NCBI GenBank assembly: GCA_946885925.1
Contig: CAMPHP010000286.1
Span: forward strand, 1-5,377
Reading direction: 5' to 3'
Source: an uncultured Litorilinea sp.
GTDB lineage: Bacteria > Chloroflexota > Anaerolineae > Caldilineales > Caldilineaceae
DNA length: 5,377 nucleotides
Positions 1-5,377 of the stretch are shown here, piece after piece; position 1 is the stretch's first letter; each line of letters begins with the position of its first letter. Under the pieces are notes generated by a model. That model had not been told where the DNA came from and made no database searches. It worked only from the letters and a program-made list of their open reading frames with translations. Position numbers and translations under genes: made by a program.

Positions 1-2
1 AT

Positions 3-857
3 GCCGGGTTTGATGTTGACTTCTGCAAGGCAGTTGCTGCCGCCATCTTTGGAGATGCAGAAGCAGTTGAGTACCGCAGCGCCAGCGCGCAGGAACGCTT
101 TACCCTAGTCAGCACAGGCGAAGTTGACGTTCTGTTCCGCAACTCCACCTGGACGCTCACCCGCGATAGCTCCGAGGTTGCCATGGAATTCATGCCTGTG
201 AACTTCTATGACGGTCAGGGAATGATGGTGCGCGCAGACAGTGGCATCACCAGCCTGGAAGATATGGAGGGCGCAACCGTCTGTGTGCAGAGTGGAACCA
301 CCACCGAACTCAACCTGACAGACTCTTTCCGCGCCCTGGGTCTCGAATTCACCCCCGTAGTTTTTGAAGACAACGACGCTACCGCGGGAGCCTATGACGA
401 AGGGCGCTGTGATGGCTTCACCACCGACAAGTCGGGTTTGGTCTCCAGCCGCACAAAAATGCAGAATCCGGACGAGCATGTGATCTTGGATGTCACCATG
501 TCCAAAGAACCTCTGGCGGGTGCTGTGGCACAGGGTGATGCACAATGGGCTGATGCAGTGCGCTGGACCGTCTATGGCCTTATCTCTGCCGAAGAGTTGG
601 GAGTAACCAGCGAGAACATTGACGAGATGCTCACCAGCGAAGACCCCAACGTTCGTCGTCTGTTGGGCGTAGAAGGTGACCTGGGAGCCAAAATTGGCCT
701 GTCCAATGACTTCATGGTGCAGGTCATTCGTGCGGTAGGCAACTACGGCGAAATCTACGACCGCAACTTGGGGCCCGATACGCCCTTTGCCTTGCCACGC
801 GGCCTTAACGAACTCTATACCAATGGCGGTATTCAATACGCCATGCCTTTGCGCTAA
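3..857 (+). CDS. aapJ: General/polar L-amino-acid ABC transporter substrate-binding protein, AapJ/BztA type (5' partial)
   Basis: The frame is open from the left edge, so the ATG at 183 is internal and the true start lies outside the window. The 284 visible residues lack the signal peptide and roughly the first 55-60 residues of a family member of about 340. Seen directly: GFDVDFCKAVAAAIFGD at residues 2-18, the ligand-site stretch RNSTWTLTRD (46-55), VCVQSGTTTE (93-102), GRCDGFTTDKSGL (134-146), SKEPL, AEELG, and the family C-terminus GNYGEIYDRNLGP to GGIQYAMPLR. These are hallmarks of the AapJ/BztA branch of the family 3 solute-binding proteins. The protein should bind amino acids outside the membrane and deliver them to AapQM. 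Asp142 is the likely contact for the ligand amino group, and Cys94 and Cys136 could form a disulfide; both are inferred from the family. It is the first visible gene of the operon, followed by a strong hairpin before aapQ. Confidence 0.95.
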   Translation, partial: AGFDVDFCKAVAAAIFGDAEAVEYRSASAQERFTLVSTGEVDVLFRNSTWTLTRDSSEVAMEFMPVNFYDGQGMMVRADSGITSLEDMEGATVCVQSGTTTELNLTDSFRALGLEFTPVVFEDNDATAGAYDEGRCDGFTTDKSGLVSSRTKMQNPDEHVILDVTMSKEPLAGAVAQGDAQWADAVRWTVYGLISAEELGVTSENIDEMLTSEDPNVRRLLGVEGDLGAKIGLSNDFMVQVIRAVGNYGEIYDRNLGPDTPFALPRGLNELYTNGGIQYAMPLR

Positions 858-881
858 ATCGTCAGCCTCGAAGATTGGATC

Positions 882-914
882 GCCGGTGCGCCACAGTGGT
901 TGTGGCGCACCGGC
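882..914 (+). promoter_or_regulatory. Intercistronic stem-loop between aapJ and aapQ
   Basis: A perfect 14-bp inverted repeat: the left arm GCCGGTGCGCCACA (882-895) pairs with TGTGGCGCACCGGC (901-914) around a 5-nt loop GTGGT. The sequence is seen directly. It begins 25 nt after the aapJ stop and ends 32 nt before the aapQ start. No T-run follows (TTCATCAGG), so it is not a classic intrinsic terminator. Stable hairpins after binding-protein genes in ABC operons often protect the upstream mRNA or cause partial termination, which gives excess binding protein over permease. That role is inferred here. Confidence 0.7.
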
Positions 915-946
915 TTCATCAGGCATAACCCAACACGAAATCCCAC

Positions 947-2386
947 ATGGCGAGCACAACTCGACCCACTTCTACTACAACGACCCCCTTCTGGCGCAAC
1001 GAGAAGGTTTTGGAGATTTTAGCCCAAGCCATCTTTGCTGTCGTCGTGGTGCTGGTCTTTTGGTTCTTGATCAGCAATATGCAAGCACGGTTGTTGGCAA
1101 CCAAAGGCGCAAATGCCTTGCAGTTCAACTTTCTGCGCACTGCCGCAGGCTTTCAGATTGGCGAAGGTCTTGCCTTTTCGCCCCAAGAAAGCTATGGCCG
1201 CGCCTTTGTCGTCGGCCTTGCCAACACCCTACGCATCGCTCTCATCGGTATCATCCTGGCTTCTATTCTTGGCCTCATTGCAGGCATTGCTCGCCTCTCT
1301 AGCAACTGGTTGGTAAGTCGTCTGGCGGGCGTTTACATTGAAATTATCCGCAGCACACCGCTGTTGGTACAATTATTCTTCTGGTATTTTGGCGTAATTT
1401 TGGCCCTGCCCGACATCAACACGCCACAGGTAATCCCCGGCTTTGCCATCCTCACCAATCGTGGCATTTCGATTGCCGCCTTGCACCTAAGCGCAACGGG
1501 CGCACCCTGGCTATGGTGGCTGTTGGGTGGACTTATTGCCGGTATCGTCGTGGGGTTTATTCGCCGCCACCAGCTACAGCGCGAGGGGCGCGTGGGCAGC
1601 GGTGCGGGCATGGGATTCGCCGCCTTTTTGCTGGTTGCGGTCGTTGGCTACATTGTCACCACCGCGACCGCTACCCTGCCAGCCAATACAGCCTATGAAC
1701 TCAACCGCGGTGACCGCGGTGTTTTATTTGTAGATAGCAATAGTGATGGCGTTTATCAAGAGGGCGAGGAACGCCCCCTGCAACATGTCAGCGTCACCTT
1801 GCTCGATAGCGCGGGCATCGAACTAGGCACAACACGCACAGATAGCGACGGAAGCTATCGCTTCTATGATCTACCTGAAGGGAGCGAAGGGGCAACACTA
1901 CGCTGGGAGACGCCTGCGCTCATCGTCATAGACCGGCCTGTGCGCCAGGGGTTCAACTTTGTTGGCGGCGCGCAAATGACACCAGAGTTTGCAGGATTGC
2001 TCTTGGGGCTGGTCATCTATACAGGTGCATTTATTGCCGAGATTGTGCGCGCAGGCATCAATGCTGTCTCCAAAGGCCAATGGGAAGCCAGCCGAGCCTT
2101 GGGTCTTTCCGGCGCTACCATTCTACGGCTTGTCGTATTGCCTCAAGCCCTGCGCGTGATCATCCCGCCTCTCACTAATCAATATCTCAACCTGACCAAG
2201 AACTCCAGTCTCGCCGTTGCCATTGGCTACCCGGATCTCTTTAATGTCTCGATGACGATCTTGAACCAGACTGGGGCAGAAATTCAGATGTTTGCCTTGA
2301 TCATGGTGGGCTATCTCTCTTTCAGCCTGATCACATCGCTTATCATGAACTGGTATAACAGGCTCATCGCCTTCTCGGAACGGTAG
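947..2386 (+). CDS. aapQ: Amino-acid ABC transporter permease AapQ with an inserted SdrD B-like domain
   Basis: A 479-residue membrane protein; usual AapQ/YhdX proteins are near 390-400. Predicted membrane segments lie at about 22-43, 86-114, 130-153, 185-204, 222-240, 347-367 and 445-468. Family signatures are GRAFVVGLANTLRIALIG (84-101), EIIRSTPLLVQLFFWYFGVI (132-151), GFNFVGG (335-341), TPEFAGLLLGLVIYTGAFIAE (345-365) and the EAA loop, which contacts the ATPase (about 380-413, EASRALGLSGATILRLVVLP). Residues 253-312 are foreign to the family and look like a calcium-loop B domain (separate entry). ATG 947 is the first ATG after an in-frame stop at 926-928, and no convincing Shine-Dalgarno sequence precedes it. 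With AapM it should form the membrane channel for amino acids bound by AapJ. The frame is intact, so the insertion is tolerated at least at the coding level. Confidence 0.95.
   Translation: MASTTRPTSTTTTPFWRNEKVLEILAQAIFAVVVVLVFWFLISNMQARLLATKGANALQFNFLRTAAGFQIGEGLAFSPQESYGRAFVVGLANTLRIALIGIILASILGLIAGIARLSSNWLVSRLAGVYIEIIRSTPLLVQLFFWYFGVILALPDINTPQVIPGFAILTNRGISIAALHLSATGAPWLWWLLGGLIAGIVVGFIRRHQLQREGRVGSGAGMGFAAFLLVAVVGYIVTTATATLPANTAYELNRGDRGVLFVDSNSDGVYQEGEERPLQHVSVTLLDSAGIELGTTRTDSDGSYRFYDLPEGSEGATLRWETPALIVIDRPVRQGFNFVGGAQMTPEFAGLLLGLVIYTGAFIAEIVRAGINAVSKGQWEASRALGLSGATILRLVVLPQALRVIIPPLTNQYLNLTKNSSLAVAIGYPDLFNVSMTILNQTGAEIQMFALIMVGYLSFSLITSLIMNWYNRLIAFSER
1703..1882 (+). other. SdrD B-like (SD-repeat/Cna-B-like) domain inserted in AapQ
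   Basis: Residues 253-312 of AapQ contain GVLFVDSNSDGVYQEGEERP, then VSVTLLDSAG, then TRTDSDGSYRFYDLPEG. The order G-x-F-x-D-x-N-x-D-G-x-x-x-x-G-E, V-x-V-T-L-x-D and T-D-x-D-G-x-Y-x-F-x-x-L-P matches SdrD B-like domains of surface adhesins. The DxNxDG loop (D263, N265, D267) is the expected calcium site. The insert lies between the membrane segment ending near 240 and the one starting near 347. The EAA loop after the latter must be cytoplasmic, and the basic RRHQLQREGR stretch before the former also suggests inside. The domain should therefore face outward, towards AapJ. Domain identity is pattern recognition; the function is unknown. Confidence 0.85.
1704..1721 (+). repeat. Perfect 9-bp tandem duplication at the start of the inserted domain
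   Basis: ACCGCGGTG occurs twice back to back (1704-1712 and 1713-1721), encoding the N-R-G-D-R-G turn where the B-like domain begins. Each copy contains the palindrome ACCGCGGT. A second, imperfect 9-bp tandem (GAAGGGAGC then GAAGGGGCA, 1877-1894; Glu-Gly-Ser/Glu-Gly-Ala) lies at the other end of the domain. Confidence 0.7.
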
Positions 2387-2406
2387 CCACATACGATGGC
2401 ACTACA

Positions 2407-2436
2407 ATGACAATACAAATAGCAATACAACTATGA
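2407..2436 (+). other. Possible 9-codon leader ORF overlapping the aapM start
   Basis: ATG 2407 opens a short frame encoding MTIQIAIQL. Its TGA (2434-2436) overlaps the aapM ATG in an ATGA arrangement, which would allow translational coupling. The region looks like a diverged 26-bp duplication of the aapM start: ATGACAATACAAATAG at 2407 resembles ATGACGACACAAATTG at 2433, so both frames begin Met-Thr-x-Gln-Ile. Neither start has a clear Shine-Dalgarno sequence. It may be only a slippage product with no function. Confidence 0.3.
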
Positions 2437-3613
2437 CGACACAAATTGATCAATCGCGCTGGGTGACTCCTACGAAGCCCCCCATAACTCAAAGTGGTCT
2501 TATCGGCTGGTTGCGCCACAATCTCTTTAGCAGCGTGGGCAACAGCATTTTGACCATTGTCACCCTAATCCTGCTCTATCTTGGGCTATCAGGATTGATT
2601 CGTTGGGTACTCAATGCCTACTGGATACCTGTTTGGGAAAACCGCAAACTCTTTGCAGTAGGATCCTGCTCTGCCTGCTCTTTGGTCTAAGCGCAGGGCG
2701 TTGGGGCAGCTTGCTGCGCGACCTTGCCATTGGTCTGGCTGCGCTCTTGGCTGTCCTCGCCATTATACCGTTGGGAATCAATGCACAGATTGCGTTGGCA
2801 GGTGGATTGGGGCTGTTGATCATCGGTTATATCGTGGGAGTCAAAGGGTTTGTGTCCACTCGGCTGCTCACGATTTTGTGGGTTCTCACCCTTCCCCTTA
2901 CATTTATCATACTGTCGGGTGGCATTGGGCAGTGGCTCTTTGCCCTTCCCGTTCCAACCAACCTGTGGGGCGGGTTGATGTTGACGCTGTTGCTGGCAGC
3001 CGTAGGGATTGCCTTTAGCTTTCCGCTTGGCGTCCTGCTTGCCCTGGGGCGGCGCAGCCATCTCCCGGTTATCCGTGGTTTCTGCGTAGGCTATATCGAG
3101 TTGATCCGCGGTTCGCCGCTGATTGCCTTACTCTTTATGGGGATTGTGCTGCTGCCACTCTTTCTGCCGCCCACTTGGGCCACACCTTCTCCGCTTGTGC
3201 GCGTAATGGTCGCAATTACGCTCTTCAGCGCGGCGTATATGGCCGAAACCGTGCGTGGTGGCTTGCAGGCAACTCCCGGCGGTCAATATGAAGCAGCCGA
3301 CGCATTAGGCTTTAGCGTGATCGACAAATTACGCCTGATCATCTTGCCGCAAGCCTTGACCAAGGTGATTCCGGCACTGGTCGGGCAGTTTATCTCGCTC
3401 TTTAAGGATACAGCACTCGTGGCGCTTGTTGGCTTGCTGGACGTGCTGGGTGTCGCCAGATCGGTTGTGCAACAACCCATGTGGTTAGGAGTTCCCGGCG
3501 GTATTACCAAAGAGGTCTACCTCTTTACGGCGGCGCTCTATTTTCTCTTCAGTTTTGGCATGAGTCTTGCCAGCAAGCGTCTCGAAACGCACCTCAACGT
3601 GGGGAAACGGTAG
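2433..3613 (+). pseudogene. aapM: Amino-acid ABC transporter permease AapM, interrupted by a frameshift
   Basis: The gene is read in two frames. Frame one (2433-2690) gives 85 residues: the AapM N-terminus with GWLRHNLFSSVGNSILTIVTL and one membrane segment, then WENRKLFAVG, eight unrelated residues and a stop. The rest of AapM continues in the -1 frame from about 2660 (RILLCLLFGLSAGRWG) to 3613. It includes NLWGGLMLTLLLA, LGRRSHLPVIR, YIELIRGSPLIALLFM, SAAYMAETVRGGLQA, the EAA loop (3290-3388, YEAADALGFSVIDKLRLIILP) and LFKDTALVALVGLLD. Joined, the two parts give about 394 residues, a normal family size. All transport-domain helices lie in the second part. That part could start separately at TTG 2603, which has AGGA at 2591-2594, but its first 19 residues would then be out-of-frame sequence. 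AapM is the partner of AapQ in the channel. The gene may be truly split, mutated, or intact with a sequence error. Confidence 0.88.
2655..2690 (+). other. Frameshift junction in aapM with a missing conserved segment
   Basis: The reading switches from Leu-Phe-Ala-Val-Gly (ending 2663) to Arg-Ile-Leu-Leu-Cys (starting 2660), and the first frame stops at 2688-2690. AapM proteins as I recall them have a short segment of the type YPxxxxWR between these blocks, and it is absent here. Loss of 3n+1 bases would explain both the gap and the frame change. The junction overlaps the palindrome AGGATCCT (2660-2667) and a 9-nt-period repeat (CCTGCTCT at 2665-2672 and 2674-2681), both features prone to indels. 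Confidence 0.65.
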
Positions 3614-3622
3614 GCAAAGCTT

Positions 3623-3642
3623 TGTAGAATCGTGCCCCTACA
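3623..3642. repeat. Small inverted repeat downstream of aapM
   Basis: TGTAG (3623-3627) and CTACA (3638-3642) form a 5-bp stem with a 10-nt loop, beginning 10 nt after the aapM stop. The right half CGTGCCCCTACA resembles one arm of dispersed palindromic intergenic repeats seen in GC-rich environmental bacteria. That likeness is from memory and uncertain. The stem is too short to be a convincing terminator. Confidence 0.3.
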
Positions 3643-3657
3643 GAATTTTGCATAAAC

Positions 3658-3685
3658 TTGCGATTAAAGGTTTCATGCTGCTAAT
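3658..3685 (+). promoter_or_regulatory. Possible sigma-70-type promoter before aapP
   Basis: TTGCGA (3658-3663) and GCTAAT (3680-3685), spaced by 16 nt, each match 4 of 6 consensus bases. They lie just upstream of the 13-bp tandem repeats in the 169-nt spacer before aapP. The call is weak. It is supported mainly by the unusual length of the spacer within an otherwise compact operon. Confidence 0.2.
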
Positions 3686-3695
3686 AGCTCGGCAG

Positions 3696-3747
3696 TACAT
3701 GCAGTATATACATGCAGTATATACATGCAGCATATACATGCAGCATA
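3696..3747. repeat. Four tandem 13-bp units upstream of aapP
   Basis: Units 1 and 2 are TACATGCAGTATA (3696-3708, 3709-3721). Units 3 and 4 are TACATGCAGCATA (3722-3734, 3735-3747). They are contiguous and differ only at one T/C position, with two copies of each version. The joins create GTATATAC palindromes flanked by TGCA. The array is AT-rich compared with the flanking genes and lies 35 nt before the aapP start. It may be a tandem operator/iteron-like regulator site or a slippage-prone variable repeat in the 5' leader. Confidence 0.85.
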
Positions 3748-3763
3748 AACATTAGGTAAAGGT

Positions 3764-3772
3764 AGGAAAGGA
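3764..3772 (+). promoter_or_regulatory. Ribosome binding site for aapP
   Basis: The purine-rich AGGAAAGGA lies 10 nt before GTG 3783 and supports that GTG as the start. It is the only strong Shine-Dalgarno sequence seen in this operon; the aapQ and aapM starts lack one. Confidence 0.7.
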
Positions 3773-3782
3773 TAGTTTAACT

Positions 3783-4532
3783 GTGTCCGGTCAGTCAGAG
3801 CCAAATGACATTATTGTCATGCACAATGTCAGCAAGTGGTATGGAAACTTCCAGGCGCTGCGTAATATCAATCTCACGGTCAAGCGCCAAGAAGTGGTCG
3901 TTGTCATTGGCCCTTCTGGTTCCGGCAAGTCAACCTTGATCCGCACCATCAACCGCCTGGAAGAACACCAAAGCGGTGACATTGTCGTGGATGGCATCCC
4001 CCTCACCCACAATGTCCGCAACATTGAGAAGGTGCGCATGGAAACCGGCATGGTCTTCCAGCAGTTCAATCTCTTTCCCCACTTGACTGTGCTTAAGAAT
4101 ATTACGCTTGCTCCGATCCATGTACGCAAGCGCCGCAAGCAAGAAGCCGAAGTGATGGCAATGGAGTTGTTGGAGCGTGTTGGCATTCCTGAACAGGCCA
4201 ACAAATACCCGGCGCAACTCTCCGGCGGGCAGCAACAGCGTGTGGCAATTGCCCGCGCCTTGGCGATGGAGCCAAAGATCATGCTCTTTGATGAGCCGAC
4301 CTCTGCCCTTGACCCGGAGATGATCCGTGAGGTGCTGGATGTTATGCGCGAGCTTGCTCACACAGGGATGACCATGCTGGTCGTCACCCATGAAATGGGC
4401 TTTGCCCGCGAGGTTGCCAATCGCATTGTCTTTATGGACAGCGGCGAAATCGTTGAGATCAACACTCCCGCCGATTTCTTTTCTAACCCTCAACACGAGC
4501 GCACCAAAGAATTCTTACAGAAAATCCTCTAA
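3783..4532 (+). CDS. aapP: Amino-acid ABC transporter ATP-binding protein AapP
   Basis: A 249-residue ABC ATPase of the polar amino-acid uptake group (AapP/BztD/GlnQ-like), of normal length. Motifs in order: aromatic A-loop Tyr20 ([12 protein letters not shown]), Walker [10 protein letters not shown] (43-51), Q-loop [13 protein letters not shown] (91-103), signature [15 protein letters not shown] (146-160), Walker [16 protein letters not shown] (166-180) with catalytic Glu171 and the D-loop, and H-loop His203 in [13 protein letters not shown]. All key residues are present, so it should hydrolyse ATP at the cytoplasmic face and drive AapQM. The start is GTG, chosen because of AGGAAAGGA upstream. 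The gene is 169 nt behind aapM and preceded by tandem repeats, so it may be transcribed or regulated partly apart from aapJQM. It could also serve other importers; its operon position makes the AapJQM role most likely. Confidence 0.96.
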
Positions 4533-4587
4533 GCGCAGTTCGGTCAGAATTCGCTAGAAATCCGCCCCGTAACGTGCCCTGTCACCC

Positions 4588-4611
4588 GGCAAGGGTCTCT
4601 CTGCCCTTGTC
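4588..4611. terminator. Weak hairpin between convergent genes
   Basis: GGCAAGGG (4588-4595) pairs with CCCTTGTC (4604-4611), with one G-T pair and an 8-nt loop. It lies 56 nt after the aapP stop and just beyond the stop of the - strand gene, where a bidirectional terminator would be expected. There is no clear T-run on either side, so termination activity is uncertain. Confidence 0.3.
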
Positions 4612-4618
4612 CCGTCTG

Positions 4619-5377
4619 CTATGCTTCAATGCGTATTGCTTCAAAGAGATTCAGGGAAGGCACGCGCAGGCTCAGCCGCCCCTCGTGCCAGGTGTGGTCA
4701 ATTGCATTCCCTCCGACCAATCCGCGCACGCCCTGCGGCGGCTGTGGATAGCTCACCACGATCTCCAGGTTTTGCATCGGGATAGGTGCAAAAAAGCTCG
4801 TGCCAAAGTGCCCCGATGTATTCACCAGATGCACCAGATCAAAATTGCTATTGCCATCAGCAGCATTGGTAAAGTGTGTCACCTCCACCTGGGGTGGTAG
4901 ATTGCCCTCCACCTGCACAATCCCCGCCACCTGCGCCAGTAGATCGCCAATAAAGTCACTGGTATTCGGATAGCCCTGGCGTTGGAAGAGTGCGCCCGGC
5001 AGCCAGGGTAGATAGATGCCCCGGCCTGCACCATGTTGGTGGATCACCAATCCCGGATGCTCTGTCACCTGCGTATAATAACAACGCTCTGGCGGGCCAA
5101 AGGAGTGAGGGGGATTGAGCTTGAGCCGTGGTTCGGCAGCCGCCACGTAGTCGGCATAGACATAGGGACCATCCAAATAGATTAGATCGGTCTCGGCAAG
5201 ATGGGGGAAGCCGCTCTTATCTTCCACCTTGAAATAGCACGATCGGGTATCTGTGCGAATGCGTTGTACTTGTTGGATGGGGAGGCTCTTGAGCGCGGGG
5301 CGGGTACGCAAGTCGCCATTCTCATCGCGCAAGCCACTGCGCCCCGACGCAATCAATGTGCCGCCCGACGCCACAAA
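4619..5377 (-). CDS. Glycosidase-like protein, C-terminal part with beta-galactosidase-trimerisation-like domain (5' partial)
   Basis: The frame is open to the right edge: a Phe codon precedes the GTG at 5374, so that GTG is probably internal. The stop is TAG at 4621-4619. About 252 residues are visible. The first visible stretch FVASGGTLIASGRSGLRDENGD resembles the end of a glutamine-amidotransferase-like fold as found in beta-galactosidase trimerisation domains. It is followed by HPGLVIHQHGAGRGIYLPWLPGALF, then a C-terminal beta-rich part with FDLVHLVNTSGHFG and VSYPQPPQGVRGLVGG. This order is typical of large putative glycoside hydrolases of Chloroflexota and related environmental bacteria whose catalytic barrel is N-terminal; here the barrel lies outside the window. 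No catalytic residues can be seen, so substrate and activity are unknown. The gene converges on aapP and shows no sequence sign of a functional link to the importer. Confidence 0.7.
   Translation of the reverse strand, partial: FVASGGTLIASGRSGLRDENGDLRTRPALKSLPIQQVQRIRTDTRSCYFKVEDKSGFPHLAETDLIYLDGPYVYADYVAAAEPRLKLNPPHSFGPPERCYYTQVTEHPGLVIHQHGAGRGIYLPWLPGALFQRQGYPNTSDFIGDLLAQVAGIVQVEGNLPPQVEVTHFTNAADGNSNFDLVHLVNTSGHFGTSFFAPIPMQNLEIVVSYPQPPQGVRGLVGGNAIDHTWHEGRLSLRVPSLNLFEAIRIEA

Follow-up and report, generated by a model that had tools for sequence, protein, structure and literature searches.

Described Systems and the AapQ Insert

The MalF-P2 loop of the maltose importer, which precedes the conserved core helices of its permease and has an immunoglobulin-like fold, is a described outer element of a type I importer. 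The present analysis deals with an inserted domain in another importer of this type, encoded in a 5,377-nucleotide stretch of DNA from an uncultured Litorilinea sp. (contig CAMPHP010000286.1, positions 1 to 5,377; hereafter, the window). The window contains a polar amino acid importer operon in the order aapJ-aapQ-aapM-aapP, as determined from its open reading frames (ORFs) and Pfam matches. Its AapQ-type permease of 479 residues (947..2386, + strand) bears an insert related to the B domains of the adhesin SdrD.

MalF-P2 is an extracytoplasmic region with beta sheets, residues 91–271, a segment of which directly contacts MalE (PMC3150292). The AapQ insert shares with it the extracytoplasmic position on the permease, as judged from the parity of the EAA loop and from model helices. 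However, the insert sits directly ahead of the core helix that runs into the EAA loop, and it contains a calcium-type loop; no homology between the two is claimed. GlnPQ-type amino-acid permeases likewise have additional extracytoplasmic domains in covalent linkage (PMC8025302), but these are substrate-binding domains, whereas AapJ of the window importer stays separate. With AapQ and other polar amino acid (HAAT-type) permeases, the window protein has in common the BPD_transp_1 and HEQRo_perm_3TM domains, the GFNF-GG-TPEF block, the EAA loop, and the J-Q-M-P gene order. It differs from ten insert-less AapQ controls, the frames of which are only 391–416 residues long, none of them (0/10) matching SdrD_B at E ≤ 0.01.

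The B domains of SdrD and UafA (PF17210; PDB 10ps, 4jdz, 3irp) are the other relatives. The insert shares with them a profile match over the cut-off, an EF-hand-like loop after the first strand, the T-D-x-D-G-x-Y-x-F sequence and, in the AlphaFold model, a putative beta sandwich. In those proteins, the domains stand in tandem in a wall-anchored stalk, whereas AapQ has a single SdrD_B stretch in a polytopic membrane permease. AapQ lacks the tandem B domains in a secreted stalk that characterize the microbial surface components recognizing adhesive matrix molecules (MSCRAMM) and wall-anchored adhesins. Each of the components is known, and their combination is not found described: narrow phrase searches of an open-access collection, outside which most subscription journals lie, turned up no account of an ABC (ATP-binding cassette) permease with an SdrD_B domain.

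Profile Match and Extent of the Insert

The protein is an AapQ-type permease by its gene order and by two profiles above their cut-offs, BPD_transp_1 (E 3.4e-15, 56.7 bits vs. 26.4) and HEQRo_perm_3TM (64.9 bits vs. 42.2). The family profile has the amino-acid permease 4yms as its best solved relative (E 9.9e-36), and its positions 259–323 match SdrD (E 7.8e-10). By similarity, the substrate of the window importer may be general L-amino acids; relatives go in some sources by the name of general L-amino acid transport system permease.

The sequence-only reading of the window had placed a B-like domain with the full SdrD signature at 1703–1882, i.e., in frame at AapQ residues 253–312. The domain itself stood up to the profile check, which returned SdrD_B (PF17210) at residues 260–313 (1724..1885, + strand) with an E of 2.7e-9 and 37.6 bits over a cut-off of 29.7, rather than no B-domain match. 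The match spans profile positions 7–59 of 112, however, so that the "full" signature is in fact the N-terminal half of the model; the C-terminal half of the insert has no profile match. The unit also turned out to be longer than proposed, the earlier coordinates lying inside it. Alignment with insert-less AapQ reveals a single clean block of about 83 residues, as against the 112 positions of the SdrD_B profile, between the helix that ends near GYIVTTATA and the segment preceding GFNF-GG-TPEF, in agreement with the position noted earlier. The block corresponds to approximately residues 240–322 (1664..1912, + strand), the 83 window residues without a counterpart in the insert-less L018.

All 120 listed homologues (the best 120 of 8000 scored; 446–522 residues, 55–100% identical to the window) carry the domain, which is partly a result of selection, as they were picked by an insert-bearing query. 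In alignment A1, comprising the window and 80 of these 120, SdrD_B is matched at E ≤ 0.001 by 66 of the 81 members and not by the other 15. In three of four carrier genomes the AapQ segment scores 27.1–28.5 bits, slightly below the cut-off. The best solved relatives of residues 240–339 by sequence are SdrD (10ps) and UafA (3irp, E 4.7e-6); the whole-chain E of 2.4e-11 for 10ps is a sum over two B domains, its best single stretch giving 1.1e-5. Chance composition as the source of the match was rejected on the basis of the Pfam score, the matching relatives in A1, and the non-matching controls. A frame artefact was rejected as well, the reading frame of the homologues being continuous across the region.

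Calcium-Type Loop and Selective Constraint

According to a preprint, each SdrD B domain has one EF-hand-like site and two exposed low-affinity sites that use a last-strand aspartate (PMC13174682). The AapQ loop at residues 263–275 (1733..1771, + strand; D263, N265, D267, Q271, and E275) is comparable to site B-I of SdrD described there. Among the 120 homologues, residue 263 is always D, 265 is N (100) or D (20), 267 is N (68), D (50) or S (2), and 275 is D (93) or E (27). Ligand-type residues thus occupy 263, 265, and 275 in 120/120, and N or D occupies 267 in 118/120. Residue 271 is D in 65 and E in 24, with other residues in 31, and positions 264, 269, and 272 are highly variable. The loop has the length of that of SdrD in five sequences and is one residue longer in 115/120. 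Judged by this pattern, it is among the most constrained parts of the insert. The calcium loop proposed earlier is therefore borne out as far as its ligand-type positions go, which are near-absolutely conserved, whereas the binding of calcium itself is something that we infer.

Outside the loop, the N-terminal-strand acid D256 (1712..1714, + strand; D in 117 and E in 3 of 120) may be equivalent to a low-affinity calcium ligand of SdrD. The T-D-x-D-G-x-Y-x-F turn and strand at residues 298–306 (1838..1864, + strand) retain T298 and G302 in 120/120 and F306 in 119/120; P245, G255, R257, G258, D263, T298, G302, and P323 are all invariant. Residue 329, a possible last-strand acid, the strand equivalence of which with SdrD is uncertain, is D in 49, E in 3, S in 67, and N in 1. 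Since position 256 is acidic in 120/120 and position 329 in 52/120 only, and since the Pfam match ends at position 59 of 112, the insert reads as a shortened B domain that retains the first calcium site.

The ratio of nonsynonymous to synonymous substitution rates (dN/dS) of the insert is 0.14–0.34 across six pairs and exceeds that of the C-terminal core in each pair, with dS partly saturated. By this measure, the insert is under purifying selection.

Fold and Position

In the AlphaFold model, the insert forms an ordered beta domain with strands at 248–334, and the ten-residue blocks across 241–340 have a predicted local distance difference test (pLDDT) score of 80–89. A disordered loop was rejected on these grounds, and the domain proposed in the sequence-only reading appeared to be ordered. 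The transmembrane helix before the insert (model residues 220–241; 1604..1669, + strand) follows the positively charged stretch RRHQLQREGR and is taken on that basis to run from inside to outside. The helix after the insert, residues 346–372, is followed by the EAA coupling segment at residues 376–386 with the EAA-type sequence GQWEASRALGL (together 1982..2104, + strand). The EAA loop is cytoplasmic in this permease family. Because helix 346–372 leads to this cytoplasmic segment and the RRHQLQREGR loop is positive, the insert is extracytoplasmic, and the outside location suggested earlier is thus supported by EAA-loop parity and the helices of the model.

Distribution and Origin

Of 46 genomes in the order of the L001 genome, which we take from its family to be Caldilineales, 35 yield an AapQ match with E ≤ 1e-40. 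The insert is present in eight of the 35, which match end to end, and absent from 27, as read in the alignment for 22 of them and judged by match spans for five. Searched over the order at E ≤ 1e-6, the insert profile finds the same eight AapQ frames and then far lower-scoring frames of 699–2501 residues only. In a sample of 298 genomes of the class, with at most five candidates scored per genome, six genomes match at E ≤ 1e-60, three of them end to end, and those three are among the eight. A search with the insert alone, restricted to similar-length proteins sharing exact words, yielded 22 proteins, all of which (22/22) are AapQ-type. An ordinary AapQ loop was rejected, given the 27 insert-less genomes and an insert profile that adds no AapQ-length frame; the segment is not, as would have refuted the earlier reading, present in all AapQ proteins. 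The with/without pair inside one bacterial order offers a natural test of what an extra outer domain does in binding-protein docking.

In a tree of AapQ minus the insert, 19 carrier rows of 77 are split off by one branch (100/98), which recurs in 100% of the 200 bootstrap trees; the carrier clade is free of insert-less rows. The tree included 10 of the 120 listed homologues and omitted L029, L030, L031, L032, L033, L040, L044, and L045. Rows L034–L042 (except L040) are in this tree and in neither the AapM nor the AapJ comparison; L046–L080 are outside the comparisons apart from five ORF spans; L111 and L119–L121 are copies of the L001–L004 places. Caldilineaceae assemblies account for the carriers L001, L002, and L004, and the carrier L003 comes from an unplaced bacterium. 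Since the carriers form one clade without insert-less rows, the simplest account is that the insert was apparently gained once, in the ancestor of one Caldilineaceae branch. The locus presents a single-origin case of an adhesin-type calcium domain that became part of a transporter on its outer side and was subsequently retained.

Retention bears on the idea that the insert is a tolerated, functionless product of recombination, which we regard as very unlikely. The region may tolerate other expansions, as in L029 (551 residues) and L032 (564 residues), but the residues that are invariant across homologues as little as 55% identical to the window, a dN/dS well below 1, and zero losses in the 19 carrier-clade rows all speak against it.

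At E ≤ 0.001, the four carrier genomes G001–G004 contain 14, 28, 40, and 23 SdrD_B matches, many of them in frames of more than 1000 residues. These genomes are rich in such matches, and a donor was therefore at hand. When traced by the insert profile, the B domains of many large same-genome proteins gave similar modest scores, and no donor is nameable. The same abundance, together with the remaining insert-profile matches in frames of 699–2501 residues, could mean that the domain attaches to some other surface protein, which might be one of the large proteins with SdrD_B repeats that these cells have, and so locates the importer in the envelope or at the surface. We consider such anchoring improbable, as the repeats are possibly a mere donor pool and carriers have one compact copy near the membrane.

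Partner Subunits and Proposed Role

The last outer loop of AapM (3461..3526, + strand, by operon comparison) is 22 residues long in eight of nine carrier operons, the window included; the ninth, L113, is unreadable. Among 48 insert-less operons, it has 18 residues in 37 and 19 in 11, and in carriers it is thus 3–4 residues longer than in 48/48 examined. This count was made without L029, L032, and L045, which lack an AapQ row, and without L034–L042 and L046–L080. The outer segment preceding the AapM core helices has 32–34 residues in eight of nine carriers (27 in the window) and 17–29 in the others. Because the carriers descend from one ancestor, the correlation counts as one event, and it could be a coincidence. 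PotC has a scoop loop, the stretch linking its last two helices, which reaches into the binding protein, and a feature of this kind is reported for MalG and SugB (PMC11414716). AapJ displays no carrier-specific insertion among the rows displayed, where the readable carriers are L001, L004, L112, and L118 (L003 has a broken frame, L113 is fragmentary, the window is truncated, and L002 and L117 have none). In these rows, the correlated change is in AapM, not AapJ.

Our preferred reading, which we hold tentatively and at somewhat less than even chances, is that a shortened SdrD B-like domain gained once serves as a calcium-stiffened brace at the importer mouth that docks AapJ in the manner of MalF-P2. 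It builds on the observed domain, its place, its single clade, its constraint, and the correlation with AapM; calcium binding, contact with AapJ, and any effect of the insert on transport would be its predicted parts. A shortened B-like (CnaB-type) domain was apparently inserted once into an extracytoplasmic loop of AapQ, just before the core helix carrying GFNF-GG-TPEF, and its EF-hand-like loop, putatively calcium-binding, has been kept under strict constraint. According to the model, the domain may fold as a calcium-stiffened sandwich at the pore mouth. Together with the longer last outer loop of AapM, it would make up a larger platform on which AapJ is caught and oriented for docking, much as the MalF-P2 loop acts on MalE. 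The calcium would serve outside the cell as a permanent structural ion and not as a signal. If docking is the role, the insert is a convergent solution to the problem of MalF-P2, with the calcium loop as a simple experimental handle.

The strongest rival, possible though doubtful, is that the domain packs on the outer loops of AapM and AapQ and stabilises the heterodimer or shields its mouth without touching AapJ. The AapM loops do vary with the insert and AapJ does not in the rows displayed, and calcium stabilises the B domains of SdrD and SdrG, which have very high mechanical stability (PMC6232131). On the other hand, a position at the pore mouth probably brings the domain into contact with the docked binding protein, and insert-less AapQ manages without such a brace.

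The strictly conserved loop might instead suggest that external calcium switches transport via folding of the domain, the more so as ethylenediaminetetraacetic acid (EDTA) loosens SdrD B1 (PMC13174682) and chelation lowers the unfolding forces of B domains approximately fourfold (PMC6232131). The kept site, however, corresponds to the likely high-affinity type of SdrD (PMC13174682), which would stay filled, and no regulatory partner is seen; sensing or gating therefore seems quite unlikely. A bolder version of the docking reading is that docking of AapJ depends on calcium, the grafted B domain and the co-lengthened scoop-type loop of AapM making amino-acid uptake conditional on external calcium. 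We consider this unlikely, if less so than the switch. In that case, the importer would be a convergent, ion-dependent counterpart of MalF-P2.

Other Features of the Window

Upstream of aapQ lies aapJ, encoding the binding protein (3..857, + strand; SBP_bac_3, E 4.2e-9), which is 93% identical to the L001 protein and truncated at its 5′ end by the window. Downstream, aapM (2433..3613, + strand) consists of two overlapping ORFs, its reading frame being broken near 2668. In alignment with L001, the window is short of 43 bases after 2668 and of 15 bases after 2937; the break may be a real lesion or a sequencing or assembly error, the two being indistinguishable. The ATPase gene aapP follows (3783..4532, + strand; ABC_tran, E 1.8e-39). 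In the gap upstream of it, 3696–3752 is a 13-base tandem repeat of 4.4 copies, TACATGCAGCATA, where L001 is gapped in the alignment. On the opposite strand, 4619–5377 (−) is an ORF of at least 252 residues, still open at the window end; neither Pfam (E ≤ 1) nor PHROG (E ≤ 0.1) gave a match to the 251-residue part searched.

Two AapQ relatives, encoded at L029:2956-4608 and L032:2962-4653, contain extra hydrophobic segments before the TPEF-type block. Their sequences suggest that the site before this block tolerates expansions.
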